This document shows, one piece after another, positions 49,631 to 59,485 of a stretch of DNA of 64,000 nucleotides (position 1 is the stretch's first letter; each line of letters opens with the position of its first letter). The notes under the pieces are model-generated. The model did not search any database. It was not told the DNA's origin and worked only from the letters and a program-made list of their open reading frames with translations. The DNA is from Cryobacterium melibiosiphilum (GTDB taxonomy: Bacteria > Actinomycetota > Actinomycetes > Actinomycetales > Microbacteriaceae): contig NZ_QZVS01000079.1 of NCBI RefSeq assembly GCF_003602235.1, positions 1 through 64,000 on the forward strand, in the 5' to 3' direction. Both the position numbers and the translations under genes were made by a program.

Positions 49631-52600
49631 CTAGCGACGCACGATCGAACGCAGCAGGCGCAGCGCCACCGAGAGTGACGCCATGTCGTCTTGGCCGAGG
49701 GCGTTGACCTCCTCGAAGACGCTGCGGGCACGACCGAGCTGCTCCTGGTTGAGGCCCTCCCAAGTGAGCAGGCGGTCCTCGGCGGTGAGAACATCCGCCG
49801 GGTCGAGGGTCGCGGTCGCCTCCCACACCGCCTTCGTCATGTCGGCGATCGTCGAGTACAGGTCGTCACGCAGCGCGGCCCGGGCGAGGGCCTGCCAGCG
49901 GTCCTTACGCGGCAGAGCCGTGATGCGCTCGAGCACATTGTCGACCTCGAACCGGGCGTACACCTGGTAGTACACGGCCGCGATCGTGGCGATGGGCGCC
50001 TGCGTCTGCGCGGCGACCTTCGCCACGTCGAGCAGCGCGAACGCTTCGAACAGCTCGGACCAGCGCCGTCCGAGGTGTTCGGGCACACCCCACTCGTCGG
50101 CCTTCGCCCGCTGCTCGTCGAGCCGGCGCATGTCAGCACCCTGCAGGTAGTCACCCAGGTGCGCGCGCAACTCATCGATCTGCGGCTTGTATTTGCCCAC
50201 GACCTCGGCGACCGGGCGCGATCCGCCCTGGTTCACCAGCCACCGCACGGCCCGGTCGAGCAGCCGGCGCATGTCGAGGTGGATCGCGGTCCAGTGCTCG
50301 GTCGGGAACGACGACGGCAGTGCGTTCAACTCATCGACCATCTTGTCGAGCTCGAAAATCTCCCGCAGGGCAACAAACGCCCGCGCGACGATGGCCTGGT
50401 TGGCGCTGGTTTCCTCCATCGCGCGGAACGCGAAGGTGATTCCGCCGAGGTTGATCATGTCGTTGGCGACGACGGTGGCGATGATCTGCTTGCGCAGCGG
50501 ATGCGTGTCCAACTCGGCGTCGAAACGCTCGGACAGCTGGGCCGGGAAATACCGGCGCAACGTGGCGCCGAACCACGGGTCGTCGCCGAGGTCGCTCACC
50601 CCGAGGCTCGTCGCCAGTTCGATCTTCGCGTAGGCGGCGAGCACCGAGAGCTCGGGCGAGGTGAGCCCCTGCCCGGTGTCGAGGCGTTCGCGCAGGGTGA
50701 CCGTCGTCGGGAGCGCTTCGAGCTCCCGGGTCAGGTCGCCGGAGGATTCCAGCCAGTTCATCAGGCGTTCGTAGCTGGGGCTCCAGTTGGTGACCAGCAT
50801 GCGGTCGTTCAGCAGGAGGATGTTCTGGTCCACGTTGTCCTGCAGCACGAGTCGGCCGACCTCGTCGGTCATCTCGCCGAGGAACCCAGCGCGTTCGGCC
50901 GGGTCGAGCTTGCCGGCGGTGACCATGCGGTCGACGAAGATCTTGATGTTGACCTCGTGGTCGGAGCAGTCCACGCCCGCGGAGTTGTCGATCGCGTCGG
51001 TGTTGAGGATCACCCCGGCGAGCGCCGCCTCGATCCGGCCGCGCTGGGTGAGGCCGAGGTTGCCGCCCTCGCCGACGACCTTGACCCGCAGATCGCGACC
51101 GTCGACGCGGATGGCATCGTTGGCCTTGTCGCCGACCTGCGCGCTGGTCTCGGTGCTGGCCTTGACGTAGGTGCCGATGCCGCCGTTGTAGAGCAGGTCG
51201 GCCGGGGCGAGCAGAATCGCCCGCAGCAGCTCCGGCGAACTCAGCCGGGTGGTGTTCTCGGGCAGGCCGAGGGCCGCGCGCACCTCGGCGCTGATCGGGA
51301 TCGCCTTCGCCTGGCGCGGAAAGATGCCACCGCCGGTGCTGATCAGGCGGGCGTCGTAGTCCGCCCACGACGAGCGTGGCAGCTCGAACAGGCGCGCTCG
51401 TTCGGCGAACGACACGGCCGGGTCGGGGTTCGGGTCGAGAAAGATGTGCCGGTGGTCGAACGCGGCGATCAGGCGCACGTGCTGCGAGAGCAGCATGCCG
51501 TTGCCGAAGACATCGCCCGACATGTCACCGACACCGACGACGGTGAACTCCTCGCTCTGCGCGTCGAGGGAGAGTTCGCTGAAGTGCCGCTTCACCGATT
51601 CCCACGCGCCGCGGGCGGTGATGCCCATCACCTTGTGGTCGTAACCGACCGAGCCGCCCGACGCGAACGCGTCACCGAGCCAGAATCCGTACTCGGCGGC
51701 CAGGGAATTCGCGATATCCGAGAACGCCGCGGTTCCCTTGTCGGCCGCCACCACGAGGTAGGTGTCGTCGTCGTCGTGGCGCACGACCCGAATCGGCGGC
51801 ACGACATTCTCGGCGGCATCCGTCGTCACGAGGTTGTCGGTGAGATCGAGCAGGCCGCGAATGAAGGTTTTGTAGCTTTCAATGCCCTCCGCCATCCACG
51901 CGGCTCGGTCGACGGATGCGTCGGGCAGCTGCTTCGCAAAGAACCCGCCCTTCGCGCCGGTCGGCACGATGACCGCGTTCTTGACCGTCTGCGCCTTGAC
52001 CAGGCCCAGCACCTCCGTGCGGAAGTCCTCCCGGCGGTCGGACCAGCGCAGCCCGCCGCGGGCGATCTTGCCGAAGCGGAGGTGCACGCCCTCAACCCGC
52101 GGCGAGTACACCCAGATCTCGAACATGGGCTTGGGGAACGGCAGCAGTTCGACCTGCTGCGGGTCGAGCTTGATGCTGAGGTAGGGCTTGTCCTGGAAGT
52201 AGTTGGTGCGCAGGCTGGACTCGATCAGGTTGATGAAGGTGCGCAGCACCCGGTCGGCGTCGAGGGTCGACACCTGCTCCATCGCCAGCGTCAGCTGCTC
52301 GCGGATCGATTCGAGCAGGGTCTCACGGGCATCCGCTTCAAGGTCGGGATGGAACCGGGCCTCGAACAGCGCCACCAGCGCGTTCGCGACCGCCGGGTTG
52401 GCGATGAGGGTGTCCCCGACGAAGCCGTAGGAGTTGGTGTTTCCCATCTGGCGCAGGTACTTGGCGTAGCTGCGCAGAATCACGACTCGCTGCCAGGCCA
52501 TGCCCTCGCGCAGCACCAGCCGGTCGAGGCCGTCGCTCTCGCTGAGCCCGTGCACGGCGGCGCCGAAAGAATCGGCGAGTAGTTGACCGGTCTTGACCGG

Positions 52601-54487
52601 GTCGATGCCATTCGGGTAGGTCAGGCCCAGGTCGTAGAGGTAAAAGGGACGTCCATCAGCGGTTTCGATCTCGAACGGGCGCTCGTCGAGCACCTGGATG
52701 CCGAGGTTGTGGAAGTACGGCAGAATCTGGCTGAGGCTCTGCGGGCGGGTCATATAGATCTTCACCCGGGCGTCCTCGTCCCCGGCCGTGACCTCGGTGC
52801 TGACCGGAAGGTAGACGTGGAAGCCGAGCGGCGATACCGCGTCAGCGGCCAGGCTCGAGGCGGCGACCTCTTCGAAACGGGCGATGTCCTGCAGCGCGTC
52901 ATCGGTTTCATAGTCGACCTGGTAGCTCGCCGGGAACGCCTCGGCCCAGAGGCCGGCGAGGCGTTCGGCGTCGTCCATCGAGTGGACCTCGTGCAGCTGC
53001 TCGGTGATGCCCTCAGGCCACGATCGCACCGCCGTGACGAGCCGGCGCTCGAGGGCGGCCGGGTCGACGTCGCCGATCGGGGCATCCTTCGGCAAGCGGA
53101 TGCGAAAGAACAGCCGGGCCAGGGCCGACTCGCTCATGCGGGCCTCGAAGTCGACCGAGACGGCACTGAAGGTTTCCTGCAGCTCTTTCTCGACGCGCAG
53201 CCGCACGGCGGTGGTGTACCGGTCGCGGGGCAGGTAAACGAGGGCGGACATGAACCGCCCGTAGACGTCGGGACGCAGGAACAGGCGGGTGCGGCGGCGT
53301 TCCTGCAGTCGCTGAATCGCGCGCACGGTCGCGGCGAGCGTGTCGACGTCGATCTGGAACAGTTCGTCGCGGGGGTAGGTTTCCATGATGCCGAGGAGGT
53401 CTTTACCGCTGTGCGAGCCGGGCGGGAACCCGATCTGCTTCATCACGGCGGCGACCTTTTCTCGTAGCACCGGTACGGTCTCGACCGAGCTCGTGTAGGC
53501 GCTCGCGGCGAAGAGGCCGATGAAACGCCGCTCGCCGTTCACGTTGCCGGCGCCGTCGAAGCTCTTGATGCCGATGTAGTCGAAGTAGGCGGGGCGGTGC
53601 ACGGTGGAGCGGGAGTTGGCCTTCGTGATGACCAGGGCGCCACGCTCCCGGGCCTTGTGCCGGCCGGCGTCGGTGAGGTGCTGGATCTGATGGGCGTCGT
53701 CGGCGTGCCGCAGCAGTCCGAGGCCACTGCCGTCGCGGATGGAGAGCACGTCCTCGCCGTCCAGGGATTTGAGGTCGTATTCGCGGTAGCCGAGAAAGGT
53801 GAAGTTGCCGGCGTCGAGCCAGCGCAGCAGGTCCTGGGTCTGCGTGAGGTCGTGGATCTCGTGCGCGTTCGTGACGGAGCCGAGGGAATTGGCGATCTGC
53901 CCGGCCTTCACCAGCATCAGCTGCCAGTCGTCGACGGCGGCGCGCACGTCGCCGAGTACCTTGCCGAGCCCGGCGATCAGGCTGGCTTGGGCCTCCTCGC
54001 TGGCCCGGTCGATCTCGACCGCGATCCAGGATTCGAGGTGTGAGGCGTCGTCGCCGCTCGCGATGAGGTGCGCGATGCTCGTCATTGCGCTGGTGTCGCC
54101 GCTCGAGACGCCGACGCTTGCGGGCATCCGGTTGACACCGACGAGGTCGCCGGTCGCGCGGTTGCGGGCCACCACGAGCAGCGGGTGCACCACGAGGTGG
54201 ATGGCCGAGTTCTGCCGCACCAGTTCGGCGGTGACCGAGTCGACGAGGAACGGCATGTCGTCCGTCACGATGTAGAGCACGCTGCGACCCGGTTCGCTCC
54301 GAATGGCCACGTTCGCGGTCTTCGCCGGCCGGGACTGGGCGACCTCGGTGTGGGCGCGGGCGCGGGCCTCGAGGGTCTCCGCGGTGTAACTGGCGGCGTC
54401 TTCCTCGGCCAGATGCTCGTAATAGTCGGCGATGAAGGAGTCGTGGGTGCCGAGTGGGGACGAGCCCCTGGTGGATTCAAACGTCAT
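49631..54487 (-). CDS. gdh: Large NAD-specific glutamate dehydrogenase
   Basis: 1618-residue enzyme of the 180-kDa class, which oxidises glutamate to 2-oxoglutarate with NAD and mainly serves glutamate breakdown. The long N-terminal regulatory part carries ACT-like segments; the catalytic core holds RGGLRWSDRREDFRTEVLGL and VPTGAKGGF (about 830-870), then VGDMSGDVFGNGML. The C-terminal helical domain is complete. Ribosome site GGAGG precedes the ATG, though spaced long. Single gene, no regulator adjacent. Confidence 0.95.
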   Translation of the reverse strand: MTFESTRGSSPLGTHDSFIADYYEHLAEEDAASYTAETLEARARAHTEVAQSRPAKTANVAIRSEPGRSVLYIVTDDMPFLVDSVTAELVRQNSAIHLVVHPLLVVARNRATGDLVGVNRMPASVGVSSGDTSAMTSIAHLIASGDDASHLESWIAVEIDRASEEAQASLIAGLGKVLGDVRAAVDDWQLMLVKAGQIANSLGSVTNAHEIHDLTQTQDLLRWLDAGNFTFLGYREYDLKSLDGEDVLSIRDGSGLGLLRHADDAHQIQHLTDAGRHKARERGALVITKANSRSTVHRPAYFDYIGIKSFDGAGNVNGERRFIGLFAASAYTSSVETVPVLREKVAAVMKQIGFPPGSHSGKDLLGIMETYPRDELFQIDVDTLAATVRAIQRLQERRRTRLFLRPDVYGRFMSALVYLPRDRYTTAVRLRVEKELQETFSAVSVDFEARMSESALARLFFRIRLPKDAPIGDVDPAALERRLVTAVRSWPEGITEQLHEVHSMDDAERLAGLWAEAFPASYQVDYETDDALQDIARFEEVAASSLAADAVSPLGFHVYLPVSTEVTAGDEDARVKIYMTRPQSLSQILPYFHNLGIQVLDERPFEIETADGRPFYLYDLGLTYPNGIDPVKTGQLLADSFGAAVHGLSESDGLDRLVLREGMAWQRVVILRSYAKYLRQMGNTNSYGFVGDTLIANPAVANALVALFEARFHPDLEADARETLLESIREQLTLAMEQVSTLDADRVLRTFINLIESSLRTNYFQDKPYLSIKLDPQQVELLPFPKPMFEIWVYSPRVEGVHLRFGKIARGGLRWSDRREDFRTEVLGLVKAQTVKNAVIVPTGAKGGFFAKQLPDASVDRAAWMAEGIESYKTFIRGLLDLTDNLVTTDAAENVVPPIRVVRHDDDDTYLVVAADKGTAAFSDIANSLAAEYGFWLGDAFASGGSVGYDHKVMGITARGAWESVKRHFSELSLDAQSEEFTVVGVGDMSGDVFGNGMLLSQHVRLIAAFDHRHIFLDPNPDPAVSFAERARLFELPRSSWADYDARLISTGGGIFPRQAKAIPISAEVRAALGLPENTTRLSSPELLRAILLAPADLLYNGGIGTYVKASTETSAQVGDKANDAIRVDGRDLRVKVVGEGGNLGLTQRGRIEAALAGVILNTDAIDNSAGVDCSDHEVNIKIFVDRMVTAGKLDPAERAGFLGEMTDEVGRLVLQDNVDQNILLLNDRMLVTNWSPSYERLMNWLESSGDLTRELEALPTTVTLRERLDTGQGLTSPELSVLAAYAKIELATSLGVSDLGDDPWFGATLRRYFPAQLSERFDAELDTHPLRKQIIATVVANDMINLGGITFAFRAMEETSANQAIVARAFVALREIFELDKMVDELNALPSSFPTEHWTAIHLDMRRLLDRAVRWLVNQGGSRPVAEVVGKYKPQIDELRAHLGDYLQGADMRRLDEQRAKADEWGVPEHLGRRWSELFEAFALLDVAKVAAQTQAPIATIAAVYYQVYARFEVDNVLERITALPRKDRWQALARAALRDDLYSTIADMTKAVWEATATLDPADVLTAEDRLLTWEGLNQEQLGRARSVFEEVNALGQDDMASLSVALRLLRSIVRR

Positions 54488-54539: not shown

Positions 54540-55784
54540 CTACGCTCGGCCCGCCGGGTGCCGTGACATCGGCTCGGGCGTGTGTGTCGACACTGTCAGC
54601 GCCTTGAGAGCCACCGGCCACGGAATCCGCTCCTGCTCCAGCCGCACGTTTCCCTCCGAGCGGATGCGCCGAAGCGCCGCCGCCTCATCGGCCGTCAACG
54701 TCGGATGATTGCCACCCGCCGGGGTCGGCTCGGGCACCCACAGGTCGCGGTAGGCGAGGAGCGTCGCTTCGTCCCTGAGCACGCTCGTCACGTCGGCGCA
54801 GCTGGAGCGCAGCGCGTGCAGAATCGCGAAGCCGTCGCTGTCGAGGTCGCCCCAGTAGCGGATGCGCCCGGTCGCCACCCACGGAATCAGGCGCAGCCGC
54901 CCCACGGCGTACCCGCCGCCGTGCAGCACGACCGCGCCCGGCAGCTCGGGCATCGCCAGAACGGTCTCGAGGTTTTCGAACACGAACACCGTGGTCGGGG
55001 CGATCGGCAGCGCCGCGAGTTCTTCGATCGGCGCGGTCACGTCGACAAGCCCGCCGGGTCGCAGCAGCGGATCGAGAAACCGCACCCGCACGAGTACCGG
55101 AGACCCGAGCAGCCCGAGCGAGGCCCGCCCGCTGACGGCGGCGTGCAGGCCCTCCACGAGCGCCCGATTGCGGCCGAGCCACTTGGTGTCGATCCCGCGA
55201 ATGGGCAGCTGCCGAATCCGCCAGCCGGAGTACGGGTGCGCGGCCAGCCAGGGGACCACCTGCAGCAGGGTCGTGAAATCGACGTCGGTCAGCAGGCGAA
55301 TGGCGCGGCCGTGCGTGCGGATCGCGGCGGGGAGAGCATCCGTCGCCAGCGTCAGCCCGTCACGCTCCGCGGGCGCGACGGGCGAATCTGTGAATGTCGA
55401 GCGCAGCAGGCCGGCCCGGTCCCGCAGCAGCCGCCAGTCCCTCATCGTCGCCGCGCCGGCGAAGGCGGCGATCGCATCGGCCCCGGTGAGCACGCAGCGC
55501 ACCGGAACGCGCTGGGCACCAACGCTCGGCCACTGCCGGTCCTGCCAGTCGACGCGCATTTCGGCCGCGGCCGCGCCGTCGGCGAGCGCCCGCCACGACT
55601 GCACCCACCCGATCACGCCGGGCAGGTCCTGCAGCACCGACTTCTCGGTCGGCGGGTGCAGCACGATCTCGAGTACGGCGGCCGCTCCCCCGGTCGCTGC
55701 CCAGGCGCGTTGGTCCTGCTCGACCCGTTTGCGGGCGCGCTCGCGGGCCGCGGCGACGGTGACCAGGGTGCGTGGCGCGGGCAT
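54540..55784 (-). CDS. jetD: Wadjet anti-plasmid nuclease subunit JetD
   Basis: 414 residues. N-terminal DUF3322 part and C-terminal DUF2220/Toprim-like part. Conserved steps visible: LPIRGIDTKWLGRNRALVE (about 193-211), FENLET with E270, and the metal-binding YWGDLDSDGF with D313, D315 and D317. In Wadjet systems JetD cuts plasmid DNA after loop extrusion by JetABC. ATG overlaps the jetC remnant stop (TGATG). JetD looks intact, but the JetABC motor is deleted, so it has no known way to be targeted. Confidence 0.88.
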   Translation of the reverse strand: MPAPRTLVTVAAARERARKRVEQDQRAWAATGGAAAVLEIVLHPPTEKSVLQDLPGVIGWVQSWRALADGAAAAEMRVDWQDRQWPSVGAQRVPVRCVLTGADAIAAFAGAATMRDWRLLRDRAGLLRSTFTDSPVAPAERDGLTLATDALPAAIRTHGRAIRLLTDVDFTTLLQVVPWLAAHPYSGWRIRQLPIRGIDTKWLGRNRALVEGLHAAVSGRASLGLLGSPVLVRVRFLDPLLRPGGLVDVTAPIEELAALPIAPTTVFVFENLETVLAMPELPGAVVLHGGGYAVGRLRLIPWVATGRIRYWGDLDSDGFAILHALRSSCADVTSVLRDEATLLAYRDLWVPEPTPAGGNHPTLTADEAAALRRIRSEGNVRLEQERIPWPVALKALTVSTHTPEPMSRHPAGRA

Positions 55785-56308
55785 CAGGCGCCCGCAGCGG
55801 GTGGCGAGGCCCCCTCGGCATCGGCCCGGAAGGTGACGCTCGCCGTGCGCGAGTCCCTGCGCGTCGCGTTGGTGATCGAGGTGATGCCGCCGACGTACGG
55901 TTCGATGGTCTGCAGCAGCCTTTCGGGCGTCGCCAGGATCATGTGGAACCCGAACTCGACGAAGACGTCCATCGCCATCCGCGTGTAGCGACTGTCGGCC
56001 TTGTCGAAGGCCTCGTCGAGGATGATGGTCGCGTAGGTGGGCAGGTCGTCTTCGTCGCTCGCGAGCTGGTAGCGCAGCGCGGCCGCAAGGCAGAAGATCA
56101 CGAGTTTCTGGCGTTGCCCGCCCGACAGCCCGGCGCTGGAATCGTGCACGTTGACCGTGCGGCCGGCGAGGTCGACCTCGTGCGCCATGAACGTGACGTG
56201 CTCGCGGGTGTCGAGGCAGCGGCCACGCCAGGCCCGGTCGGCGATCTCGCTCGAACCCAGTGGTGACATGAACCGGTTGAGAACGGCGAAACGCCGTTCC
56301 GCCGCTGA
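55784..56308 (-). pseudogene. jetC: C-terminal remnant of Wadjet SMC-like subunit JetC
   Basis: About 173 codons survive: AAERRFAVLNRFMSPLGSSE, the ABC signature LSGGQRQKLVIF, Walker B TIILDEAFDKAD and FGFHMILATPERLLQTIEPY. These are the last parts of the MukB/SMC-like JetC, normally over 1000 residues with the Walker A at the far N-terminus, here gone. The fragment has no start of its own and begins directly after jetA codons in another frame. Read from the jetA start, this stretch would be translated in the wrong frame. Confidence 0.85.
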
Positions 56309-56471
56309 TGCGTTCGTAGAGGTCGTCGGTGGGCAGCCGACGGTCGTCCCCACCGAGATGTTCGCTGAGCAGCGCGGCGATGACCGGTGCGTTGCCGGCC
56401 CGCAAAAGCCGCCACGTGGCATCCGTCTCGAGCAGCCGGGCGAGGGCGTGGGTCTGGCTCAGTGCACTCAC
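56307..56471 (-). pseudogene. jetA: N-terminal remnant of Wadjet kleisin-like subunit JetA
   Basis: GTG at 56471 after a strong GGAGGA site begins a 55-codon stretch, with LARLLETDATWRLLRAGNAP and LSEHLGGDDRRLPTDDLYER, characteristic of the DUF3375 (JetA) N-terminus. Homology stops at LYERI and jetC sequence follows. The frame stays open through the jetC remnant and into jetD, so one long chimeric frame exists by chance. The remaining jetA, all of jetB and most of jetC are missing. Confidence 0.82.
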
Positions 56472-56735
56472 GGGTTCCTCCAAGTCGCCTGTCGGTGCGG
56501 TGAAATAGCGTCTGAAAACATCATGCAGCACCCCACCGACACTCCAACATCCGCGGGTGCGTCAGCCCGCACATGTCACCGGAATTCAGGCTATCGAAGT
56601 CGCCCTCCCGGTGGCACAATTCGACGTGACGGGGGGTTCCTCGCGAAAACCTCGTCGTCTGGGCCCGCTTACCCCTGGGCAGGGCCTGCGCAGGTGAATC
56701 TCTACCCGACACGACGGTTCCCGACGGAGGCCGCG

Positions 56736-56765
56736 ATGATTCATACCCCGGTGAGCGCGCGATGA
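56736..56765 (+). CDS. Nine-codon leader ORF coupled to the sensor protein
   Basis: ATG at 56736 follows GGAGG by 5 nt, encodes MIHTPVSAR and ends TGA overlapping the ATG of the sensor gene (ATGA). The sensor gene has no ribosome site of its own, so its translation probably depends on this leader. The rest of the gap between jetA and this leader (56472-56735) shows no gene. Confidence 0.5.
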   Translation: MIHTPVSAR

Positions 56766-59485
56766 CCGCACTGCAGGACGACGACCCGCACAAATCCGCC
56801 GACTCCCTGATGCGCGCCGAGGCCCTGCAACAGGCTGTGCTGCACAGCGGCAGCTTTTCCGTGATCGCGACCGACGTCAACGGAATCATCCAGATCTTCA
56901 ACGTCGGCGCGCAGCGCCGTCTGGGCTACCGCGAGGCCGACGTGGTCAACAAGGTCACCCCCGCGGTCTTCGCCGATCAGGCCGAGCTGATGGAGCGTGC
57001 GAGAGAGCTGAGCGCCGAGTTCCACACCGCTATCGCGCCGGGCTTCGAGGTGCTCTCCTACCAGGCCGCCCACGGCGGCGAGCAGGTGCACCGCATCACC
57101 GGTGTCCGCAAAGACGGCGTGCATTTTCCGGCGATCGTGTCAGTCACCGCCCTGCACGACGCCGAGCAGCAGATCATCGGCTACCTGCTGATCGGAACGG
57201 ATGACGCCGCCCGGCACGACGCGGACAACCGTTCCCAGCTCGATGAACAACGACGTGACCAGCAGTTCTATACTCGCTCGGTGATCGAATCCAGCGTCGA
57301 CGCCCTGATCACGATGACGCCGGCCGGCATCATCACCGACGTGAACCAACACACGATCACCCTGCTCGGACGCACCCGCGACGAACTCATCGGGCTGCCG
57401 TTCCGCCTGTGTTTTCTCGACCCCGCGACCGCCGACCGACTGGTTCACCGGGTCCTCGCCGAGGACCGCGTGACCGATGCCGAGCTCACGGTGGCGGCCA
57501 GCAACGGCACCCAGTTTCGCGCCGCCTGCAACGCGGTCGTGTACCGGGATCGCGATCGGGTCGTGCGCGGCGTCTTCGCGTCCGTGCGCGATGTGACGGC
57601 GCTCCGCCCGGGGCAGACCCCCGACCCGCATGCCGCAGAATCCACCGGGAGCCCCGAGGCCTCGACCAGCCTGCCGCACGTCGCGCGCGAGCTGGGCCCG
57701 CCGCTGACATCGATTCTCGAGTTCTCCGAAGTGCTGAAAGACGGCATCCTCGGTGAGCTTTCGGACCAACAGCGGGCCACCGCCGACGCCATCTTCACGA
57801 GCGGCCAGCACCTCGTGAACATGCTCAACGACCTGATCAACCTCGCCCACCTACAGACCGGCACGGTGCCATTGGCCGTGGTCGACGTTCACGTCGAAAG
57901 CCTGCTGTACATGAGCCTGGTGCGGCTGCGCGAGCAGGCCGCCGATCCCACCGTGGGGTTCGACGTGTCCGTCTCCGACGAGGCCTACACGTTTCCCCTG
58001 GATGTGCAGGTCACCATGCAGATTCTGCTGAATGTGCTGGCGAACGCGGTGCGGGCGAGCGCCTCGGGATCGCGGGTCTCCCTCAGCGCCACCCTGGTTC
58101 CCCGCGCCGCGGTGGGCACGATCACGGGACCGTGGCCGGTGCACGCGCTGCCCCTGGTGTCCCCGAGCACCGACGATTTCCTTCAGATCTCGGTTCAGGA
58201 CGCCGGCACCGGCATTCCGCCGCAGCAATTACCGAATCTCTTTGAACCGTTCCCCGTCGTGACGGGCGAGCCGGGCCGCGCCGCGCCGCGCCAGCCCGAG
58301 CGGGACGGCATGGAGCCAACACGCTTCGAACCGAAGCGCTGGCAACCCAACCGCTTCGAGAACTCCGGCCTCGGGCTGGCCGTCGTGAAGGATCTGACCG
58401 TGTACTACGGCGGCACGGTTGCCGTCGCGAGCAGCCTCGGCGAGGGCACTCGGTTTGTCGTCTGGCTGCGCCGCCGCCCGGTGCAGAAAGCCGCCGCCGA
58501 CACGACCTCCGGCGACACGACCTCCGGCGAGGCGACGGATGCCGCACCCGCGGCAACCTCTTCGGCCAGCCTGCCGAGTGATCATCTGACCGCACCGACG
58601 GCGATCCCCTCCCCCGCCGCCGTTCCCACTCCCGCCTCGGTGAGCTTCAGCCCCCCGTCCCCGCCCGTTCTCGTGCCCGCGCCGGAGCCTGCCGACAGCG
58701 CCTTCACGGAGGACTCCCTCACTCGGCATCTGCCCCAGCATTCCCGCATCGCCCTCGTGATCGAGAGCGATGCCCCGACGACCGAATGGCTGCGCCTGCT
58801 CCTCGCCGCCGAAGGATTCACCGTGGTGCACGCGGCCGACGGCGACCGCGGCCTCGAACTCGCCACCCGCCTGCCGGTCAGCCTGATCACCCTCGACGTG
58901 CTGCTGCCCGGCATCGACGGCTGGGGCCTGCTGGCCCGGCTGCGCACCTGGCCGGAGCTCAATCGGATTCCCGTCGTCGTCATCGCGGGGCTGGTCGACA
59001 TGAGCTTTGCCCTCTCGCAGGGCGCGACCGCAGTGCTCGAGAAGCCCATTACCCGGGCCGATCTGCGCCAGTCGCTCAACCTGCTCGGGCTGCGCACCGC
59101 CCACGCCCGCGCCACGAACATCCTGGTGCTCGACGACCGCGAGACCACGGCGAAGCTGGTCGCCGCCCACCTGAAACCGCCGCACTTCCAGGTGGCTTAT
59201 CTGGGGTCGGGCGCTGGCGCCCAGGCCGTCGCCCAGAAGCTCCAGCCCGACCTCATCATCCTCAATCTGCTGATGGACAACCAGACCGGTTTTGCGGTTG
59301 TGCGTGCCCTGCAGGGCGACCCCGTCACCGAACGCATCCCGCTGCTCGTGATGAGTGCGGCGCCCCTGACGCGCGACGAGCGCGACGCGTTGCAGGATCA
59401 TCCCGCCCAGCCGGTGCGACTGATCATGACCCCCGACTTCGACCCCGTCGAGTTCATCACCGAGGTCAAGAACGCGATCAGCTGA
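56762..59485 (+). CDS. PAS-PAS histidine-kinase-like protein with two receiver domains, degenerate
   Basis: 907 soluble residues: PAS (about 20-145), PAS (about 170-280), HisKA-like helix (about 303-365), ATPase domain with N-box LLNVLANAV, G1 DAGTGIPP and G2 GLGLAVVK, a Pro/Ala/Thr-rich linker (about 575-645), then two receivers. The H-box reads ARELGPPL where SHELRTPL is usual, so the phospho-histidine is R309. Receiver 1 keeps D712 and K761; receiver 2 has N835 instead of the aspartate and no lysine. It is unlikely to be a normal phosphorelay kinase. No membrane segment, so it senses inside the cell. Confidence 0.85.
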   Translation: MTALQDDDPHKSADSLMRAEALQQAVLHSGSFSVIATDVNGIIQIFNVGAQRRLGYREADVVNKVTPAVFADQAELMERARELSAEFHTAIAPGFEVLSYQAAHGGEQVHRITGVRKDGVHFPAIVSVTALHDAEQQIIGYLLIGTDDAARHDADNRSQLDEQRRDQQFYTRSVIESSVDALITMTPAGIITDVNQHTITLLGRTRDELIGLPFRLCFLDPATADRLVHRVLAEDRVTDAELTVAASNGTQFRAACNAVVYRDRDRVVRGVFASVRDVTALRPGQTPDPHAAESTGSPEASTSLPHVARELGPPLTSILEFSEVLKDGILGELSDQQRATADAIFTSGQHLVNMLNDLINLAHLQTGTVPLAVVDVHVESLLYMSLVRLREQAADPTVGFDVSVSDEAYTFPLDVQVTMQILLNVLANAVRASASGSRVSLSATLVPRAAVGTITGPWPVHALPLVSPSTDDFLQISVQDAGTGIPPQQLPNLFEPFPVVTGEPGRAAPRQPERDGMEPTRFEPKRWQPNRFENSGLGLAVVKDLTVYYGGTVAVASSLGEGTRFVVWLRRRPVQKAAADTTSGDTTSGEATDAAPAATSSASLPSDHLTAPTAIPSPAAVPTPASVSFSPPSPPVLVPAPEPADSAFTEDSLTRHLPQHSRIALVIESDAPTTEWLRLLLAAEGFTVVHAADGDRGLELATRLPVSLITLDVLLPGIDGWGLLARLRTWPELNRIPVVVIAGLVDMSFALSQGATAVLEKPITRADLRQSLNLLGLRTAHARATNILVLDDRETTAKLVAAHLKPPHFQVAYLGSGAGAQAVAQKLQPDLIILNLLMDNQTGFAVVRALQGDPVTERIPLLVMSAAPLTRDERDALQDHPAQPVRLIMTPDFDPVEFITEVKNAIS

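Follow-up and report, generated by a model that had tools for sequence, protein, structure and literature searches.

Cryobacterium melibiosiphilum carries the remnant of a type I Wadjet operon (JetABCD/MksFEBG), in which the beginning of jetA (hereafter jetA') is joined to the tail of jetC ('jetC) and is followed by a whole jetD gene. We consider that this arrangement reflects the recent inactivation of a plasmid-restriction operon by one internal deletion of ~4.9 kb, which left the jetD nuclease gene behind, and we place the probability of this reading at roughly 0.87. The remnant lies on the minus strand of the window (the whole 64-kb stretch of DNA analyzed), between a gene for an NAD-glutamate dehydrogenase (49631..54487, minus strand) and a gene for a PAS/histidine kinase/response regulator hybrid (56762..59485, plus strand), both identified by Pfam matches and synteny.

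A preliminary description of this DNA had recognized a jetA start with its ribosome site, a jetC end in another frame at 55784-56308, and a complete jetD, and profile searches bear out the gene assignments. jetA' covers codons 1-55 of a type I jetA, which encodes the kleisin, and runs from a GTG start codon at 56471 (56307..56471, minus strand). Positions 1-55 of the 487 in the PADLOC JetA1 profile PDLC00460 match 56304-56471 on the minus strand (E = 1.6e-14), as do positions 1-44 of the 474 in Pfam DUF3375 (E = 5.2e-10); a solved-structure search with jetA' returned nothing relevant. The GTG is preceded by GGAGGAA (56475..56481, minus strand), the probable ribosome site of jetA, which is the same in the sister genome discussed below. 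The last 172 codons and the stop codon of jetC, which encodes an SMC-like ATPase, occupy 55784..56302 on the minus strand. The open reading frame that contains them (55784-56422, minus strand) matches positions 937-1105 of the 1112 in JetC1 PDLC00518 (E = 1.5e-84) and also SbcC_Walker_B (E = 2.4e-25), and it includes the sequences GLSGGQ and ILDEAF, which we take to be the signature and Walker B motifs. jetD (54540..55784, minus strand) is a complete TOPRIM nuclease gene of 414 codons for amino acids, matching positions 4-387 of the 391 in JetD1 PDLC00530 (E = 6.8e-114) as well as JetD_C and DUF3322. Alignment to MksG (8b7f) pairs JetD residues E270, Y292, D313, E383, and E385 with MksG E236, Y258, D279, E349, and E351, the roles of which are treated in the account of MksG in PMC10123090.

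Measured against a functional type I Wadjet system, the locus retains only the nuclease. JetD is present with DUF3322, the JetD_C TOPRIM domain, and the catalytic acids (54540-55784). A functional system has a full-length JetA (DUF3375), and here only positions 1-55 of 487 remain; it has a complete JetC with Walker A, coiled coils, and Walker B, and here the Walker B part stands without the N-terminal part that carries Walker A in the intact sister protein; and it has a JetB (DUF4194), the genome's sole match to which lies on another contig (C59). Both the profile coverage and the comparison with the intact operon agree with the earlier statement that the rest of jetA, all of jetB, and the Walker A and coiled-coil regions of jetC are missing.

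That these genes were lost by internal deletion, as had been proposed, is strongly supported by a genome of the same genus (G012), in which a complete jetABCD operon is flanked by the same two genes, for the glutamate dehydrogenase and the hybrid kinase. The JetD encoded there is the closest found outside the C. melibiosiphilum genome itself (80% identical; 82% over 372 aligned codons). The C. melibiosiphilum locus aligns with G012 jetA up to 56307 and with G012 jetC from 56302, and 4,930 bases of G012 lie between the two points; jetA' and the region upstream of it align to G012 as one block, with 78.5% identity. The pieces of the remnant are thus in operon order at the place of a relative's intact operon, and the undeleted syntenic locus implies that ~4,930 bases have been lost in C. 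melibiosiphilum.

A single deletion running from codon 55 of jetA to about codon 963 of jetC would account for the present arrangement. Without the JetA, JetB, and JetC motor there would be no loop extrusion, JetD would be neither brought to small circular DNA nor activated on it, and the locus would no longer restrict plasmids. According to the review PMC10586767, defense against plasmids in Bacillus subtilis requires all four subunits, cleavage depends on ATP and a functional JetC, and artificially high concentrations are needed for JetD to cut alone, in which case it shows no preference for circles. MksG of Corynebacterium glutamicum is described in PMC10123090 as cutting in vitro without MksBEF, which counts against reading the stranded nuclease as dead, and as needing MksB in vivo. 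Since the catalytic residues of the C. melibiosiphilum JetD are intact, a weak, unguided activity is possible, and retention of the jetA ribosome site and upstream region means that expression of the locus may continue, probably yielding an idle JetD or a JetA'-linker-JetD protein. In this scheme jetD would persist because the time since the deletion has been too short for decay, and resident plasmids might conceivably have made the loss tolerated or even favored. Also speaking against decay are the intactness of jetD, including its catalytic residues, the frame that stays open from the jetA start into jetD, and an independent deletion with a similar layout in another genome (G201; for both, see below).

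The age of the deletion was approached with a codon model of ten sequences in which the C. melibiosiphilum branch was given a separate omega. For jetA' (55 codons), omega was 0.099 on this branch and 0.065 in the background; for the jetC tail (161 codons), it was 0.037 and 0.028; and for jetD (372 codons), it was 0.165 and 0.081 (2 delta lnL = 3.5). The values on the C. melibiosiphilum branch are therefore low in all three pieces and highest in jetD, on synonymous branches that are long and partly saturated. Profile limits (1.92 log units) give an upper bound of ~0.08 for the jetC tail and a range of ~0.085 to 0.5 for jetD. An ABC-type ATPase lacking Walker A has no ATPase activity, and the jetC tail therefore cannot be an ATPase. 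From the upper limit of ~0.08 we calculate that the deletion is no older than the last ~5% of the branch, provided that the jetC tail has been free to drift ever since; the figure is rough, given the long, partly saturated synonymous branches and third positions with ~89% G+C. Strong constraint is still apparent in the stranded jetC tail, and this indicates that the deletion is young; and with a young deletion the intactness of jetD is to be expected and is no proof of a retained role. By the same token, the dN/dS of jetD was discarded as evidence of function, because the jetC tail and jetA', serving as controls, have low values too; the raised omega of jetD is compatible with recent relaxation. 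The preliminary description had left JetD as either dying or serving a separate role. The first of these is favored, and the conservation of jetD is uninformative about the second, as the jetA' and jetC fragments appear constrained as well.

Loss of Wadjet is not confined to C. melibiosiphilum. A JetD search of 57 genomes of the genus, C. melibiosiphilum included, gave a match in 24, of which 18 have all four genes and 6 have a remnant (C. melibiosiphilum, G019, G020, G022, G030, and G036). The four-gene class includes G021 and G040, which have a longer jetD, and G041, in which jetC is in two frames. A broken jetD had been considered for G021 and G040 on account of stops in the aligned stretches and was rejected, both operons being complete with the longer gene. 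In G041 (L083), the two jetC frames overlap near codon 1088, which could represent a frameshift or an assembly error. The intact operons of G006, G015, G025, and G049 and the jetD remnants of G019, G020, and G036 are all found no more than ~8 kb upstream of the glutamate dehydrogenase gene that flanks the C. melibiosiphilum remnant, and on this evidence of position the region looks like an old Wadjet site that has been lost several times. Among 79 JetD loci from named genomes (79 of the 86 matches), 70 pass the coverage thresholds for all four genes and 9 fail: L149, L172, and L188 at a contig end; L169, L197, and L198 with no detectable JetB or with a partial JetC; and three as remnants, in Cryobacterium sp. 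Y50 (L179), C. levicorallinum (L195), and Agromyces bauzanensis sequence25 (L183). In the last of these (L183:6316-8356), jetC begins at about codon 817 and jetD is split in two, and no jetA or jetB was found there.

The family was surveyed as well. In a sample of 150 Microbacteriaceae genomes there were 17 JetD_C matches, 14 of them within 10 kb of a full-length JetA; of the other three, one is a short remnant (G184), and those of C. melibiosiphilum and G201 stand beside an N-terminal fragment of JetA. No stable motor-less JetD was seen in other genomes among these 17 matches. Conversely, this sample contains 32 near full-length JetA matches, and for 18 of them no JetD_C match lies within 10 kb. 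Among the loci examined, JetD without JetABC occurs only in broken operons, and JetABC without JetD is common, an asymmetry suggesting that the motor without the nuclease is an apparently stable state in the family and that the nuclease without the motor is confined to broken loci. The locus in G201, a member of another genus of the family (contig C19, L202:6399-7997), resembles that of C. melibiosiphilum in that a jetA start, here of 113 codons, is joined to the end of jetC, from about codon 1094, and is followed by an open jetD. It differs in its breakpoints, in the frame of its jetA', which stops after 147 codons, and in having His at the position equivalent to MksG Tyr258, as placed by our own alignment. 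Two deletions of the same outline are curious, but valuable flanking genes would be expected to confine viable deletions to the operon.

The preliminary description did not see that the C. melibiosiphilum genome contains a second, jetD-less jetABC set. Contig C59 (L003:5834-11529) encodes a complete JetA/JetB/JetC set of another subfamily (PADLOC PDLC00464/00496/00517, versus PDLC00460/00518 at the deleted locus), without an adjacent jetD; identity between the two JetC types is ~25-29%. JetC of the C59 type (at least 65% identity) is found in 53 of the 57 genus genomes, and in none of the 53 is there a JetD match nearby, so this set does without JetD as a rule, and it looks like a core MksBEF-type condensin. 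The presence of a complete motor in the same cell raises the question of whether the stranded JetD might work with it in trans and so retain some plasmid restriction. Such a partnership would draw on the intact catalytic residues of JetD, and it has a parallel of sorts in C. glutamicum, where MksG binds the kleisin MksF according to PMC10123090, but the distance between the subfamilies and the invariable absence of JetD from the neighborhood of C59-type genes make it very improbable. We hold similarly little hope for a broader proposal, under which the motor-less combination of a jetA start and JetD, reached separately in two Microbacteriaceae genera, still acts, either because the fusion is an unguided or plasmid-responsive nuclease or because JetD borrows the cell's own stand-alone MksBEF-like complex.

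The fusion itself deserves separate consideration. As had been noted, the frame that begins at the jetA start is open into jetD; it runs from GTG 56471 to 54540 (54540..56471, minus strand) and predicts a protein of 643 amino acids made up of JetA', the jetC tail read out of frame, and JetD. If translated, this could be a new functional nuclease fusion, an idea that draws on the retention of the jetA start and its ribosome site and on the openness of the frame. The same frame of the jetC tail is open in none of 16 undeleted loci (those of the 18 four-gene genomes minus G041 and the distant G023), each having at least one stop; synonymous-codon shuffles that preserve the protein leave it open in only 4-16% of cases, according to the codon usage taken, and one in three random joins would be in the jetD frame. 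An open frame after the deletion is therefore mildly surprising and constitutes the main hint for a fusion protein. However, this hint is a post hoc one, the fusion would include ~172 residues translated from jetC in the wrong frame, jetD retains its own start, and the jetA' frame in the parallel case of G201 is closed, and we judge a functional fusion to be very unlikely.

The junction falls at 56303..56307 (minus strand), between the end of the jetA alignment at 56307 and the start of the jetC alignment at 56302, at the residues before ERRF. In undeleted Cryobacterium relatives ERRF is mostly preceded by A-A-A or A-S-A, and by our reading GCGGCGGAA at the join would fit these residues, so that the join appears to be blunt or to have ~1 base in common. 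The preliminary description had placed the junction in a self-complementary sequence, a claim that does not hold: only 10 of the 20 positions of GGCGGAACGGCGTTTCGCCG agree with its reverse complement, the sequence sits on the jetC side, and its imperfect 8-base arms follow from the codons for A-E-R-R-F-A, residues common to several undeleted relatives. A palindrome-driven deletion was accordingly rejected, as the inverted repeat belongs to the coding part of jetC and is confined to one side of the junction. Deletion between repeats was rejected too: the longest common word within 200 bases of the two G012 breakpoints, and the sole sizeable one, is 11 bases long, lies ~150 bases off the jetC breakpoint, and misfits the observed join. 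Separately, by our reading of the alignment, the jetC residues next to the junction (56202-56302) diverge from G012 more than the remaining tail does, whether by chance or perhaps as a mark left by error-prone repair.

Although the genome is a draft of 97 contigs (4.71 Mb), it is scarcely credible that misassembly produced the deletion and that the organism has an intact operon, since the junction is inside a 93-kb contig (C43), no 14-mer around it recurs in the 64-kb window, the want of a fitting repeat at the breakpoints leaves a collapse by repeat unexplained, and searches of all 97 contigs found the missing genes on no other contig, with DUF3375 only on C59 and in the jetA' fragment, DUF4194 only on C59, and JetC (with the C59 JetC as the query) only on C59 and in the 'jetC tail.

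The suggestion that loss of Wadjet went with acceptance of plasmids is reasonable and has circumstantial support. With four PF03432 relaxase matches, the C. melibiosiphilum genome ranks first among the 57 genomes; the matches lie on contigs C83, C79, C62, and C21 (L225, L226, L228, and L229), which measure 35.2, 20.3, 47.2, and 7.7 kb and have 61-63% G+C, versus 69% in the window. All four resemble actinobacterial plasmids in part: the whole of C21 matches the Cryobacterium plasmid NZ_MN657133.1 over 73% with 88% identity, C79 (20,000 of its 20,287 bases) matches the C. arcticum plasmid NZ_CP016284.1 over 42% with 79% identity, and C83 and C62 (20,000 bases of each) match the latter over 13-14% only, around the relaxase. 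Terminal overlap was found in none of the six C. melibiosiphilum contigs in which it was sought. Across the 57 genomes, an association between plasmids and loss of Wadjet is insignificant except in a subset chosen post hoc. PF03432 relaxases occur in 4 of the 18 four-gene genomes and 13 of the 39 others (P = 0.54), and on contigs under 100 kb in 1 of 18 versus 9 of 39 (P = 0.15), draft contig size being a poor proxy for replicon size; remnant genomes gave 3 of 6 versus 1 of 18 four-gene genomes (P = 0.035, post hoc), falling to 2 of 5 (P = 0.11) with C. melibiosiphilum left out. TrwC relaxase matches, present in 41 of the 57 genomes, do not discriminate, C. melibiosiphilum having three and G012, with its intact Wadjet, six. 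One four-gene genome carries two PF03432 relaxases on a contig of 117.6 kb (L205, G051 contig C2), which is above ~100 kb. Plasmids above ~100 kb are said in PMC10586767 to escape Wadjet.

Overall, this looks like an ordinary kind of defense-system loss in an unusually clear setting and not like a new function. In C. melibiosiphilum the loss of Wadjet has been captured naturally: the operon survives intact at the corresponding chromosomal position of a sister genome, and the host has several plasmid-like contigs. Whether bacteria drop Wadjet on taking up small plasmids thus becomes testable in a natural species pair. Our literature search found no paper treating both Cryobacterium and Wadjet.

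The locus can be set beside several known systems. It matches intact type I Wadjet (JetABCD; MksFEBG; EptABCD) in its JetA1 start, its JetC1 end, its whole JetD1, and the gene order seen in G012, and it differs in having lost jetB, all but the start of jetA, and, from jetC, the Walker A part, hinge, and coiled coils. Inactivation of such operons, natural or spontaneous, is known from Clostridium cellulovorans, where PMC12287153 describes a spontaneous jetABCD deletion, and from Mycobacterium smegmatis, where an ept null mutation is among the cases reported in PMC10586767; in those accounts the plasmid-uptake phenotype was measured, whereas in C. melibiosiphilum it is inferred and jetD has been left whole. 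Pseudomonas aeruginosa, given in the same review (PMC10586767) as an example of MksBEF without MksG, likewise has one half of JetABCD alone. The halves are opposite ones: the P. aeruginosa MksBEF complex is a motor without its nuclease, the C59 set of C. melibiosiphilum is of this same kind, and the deleted locus is a nuclease without its motor.
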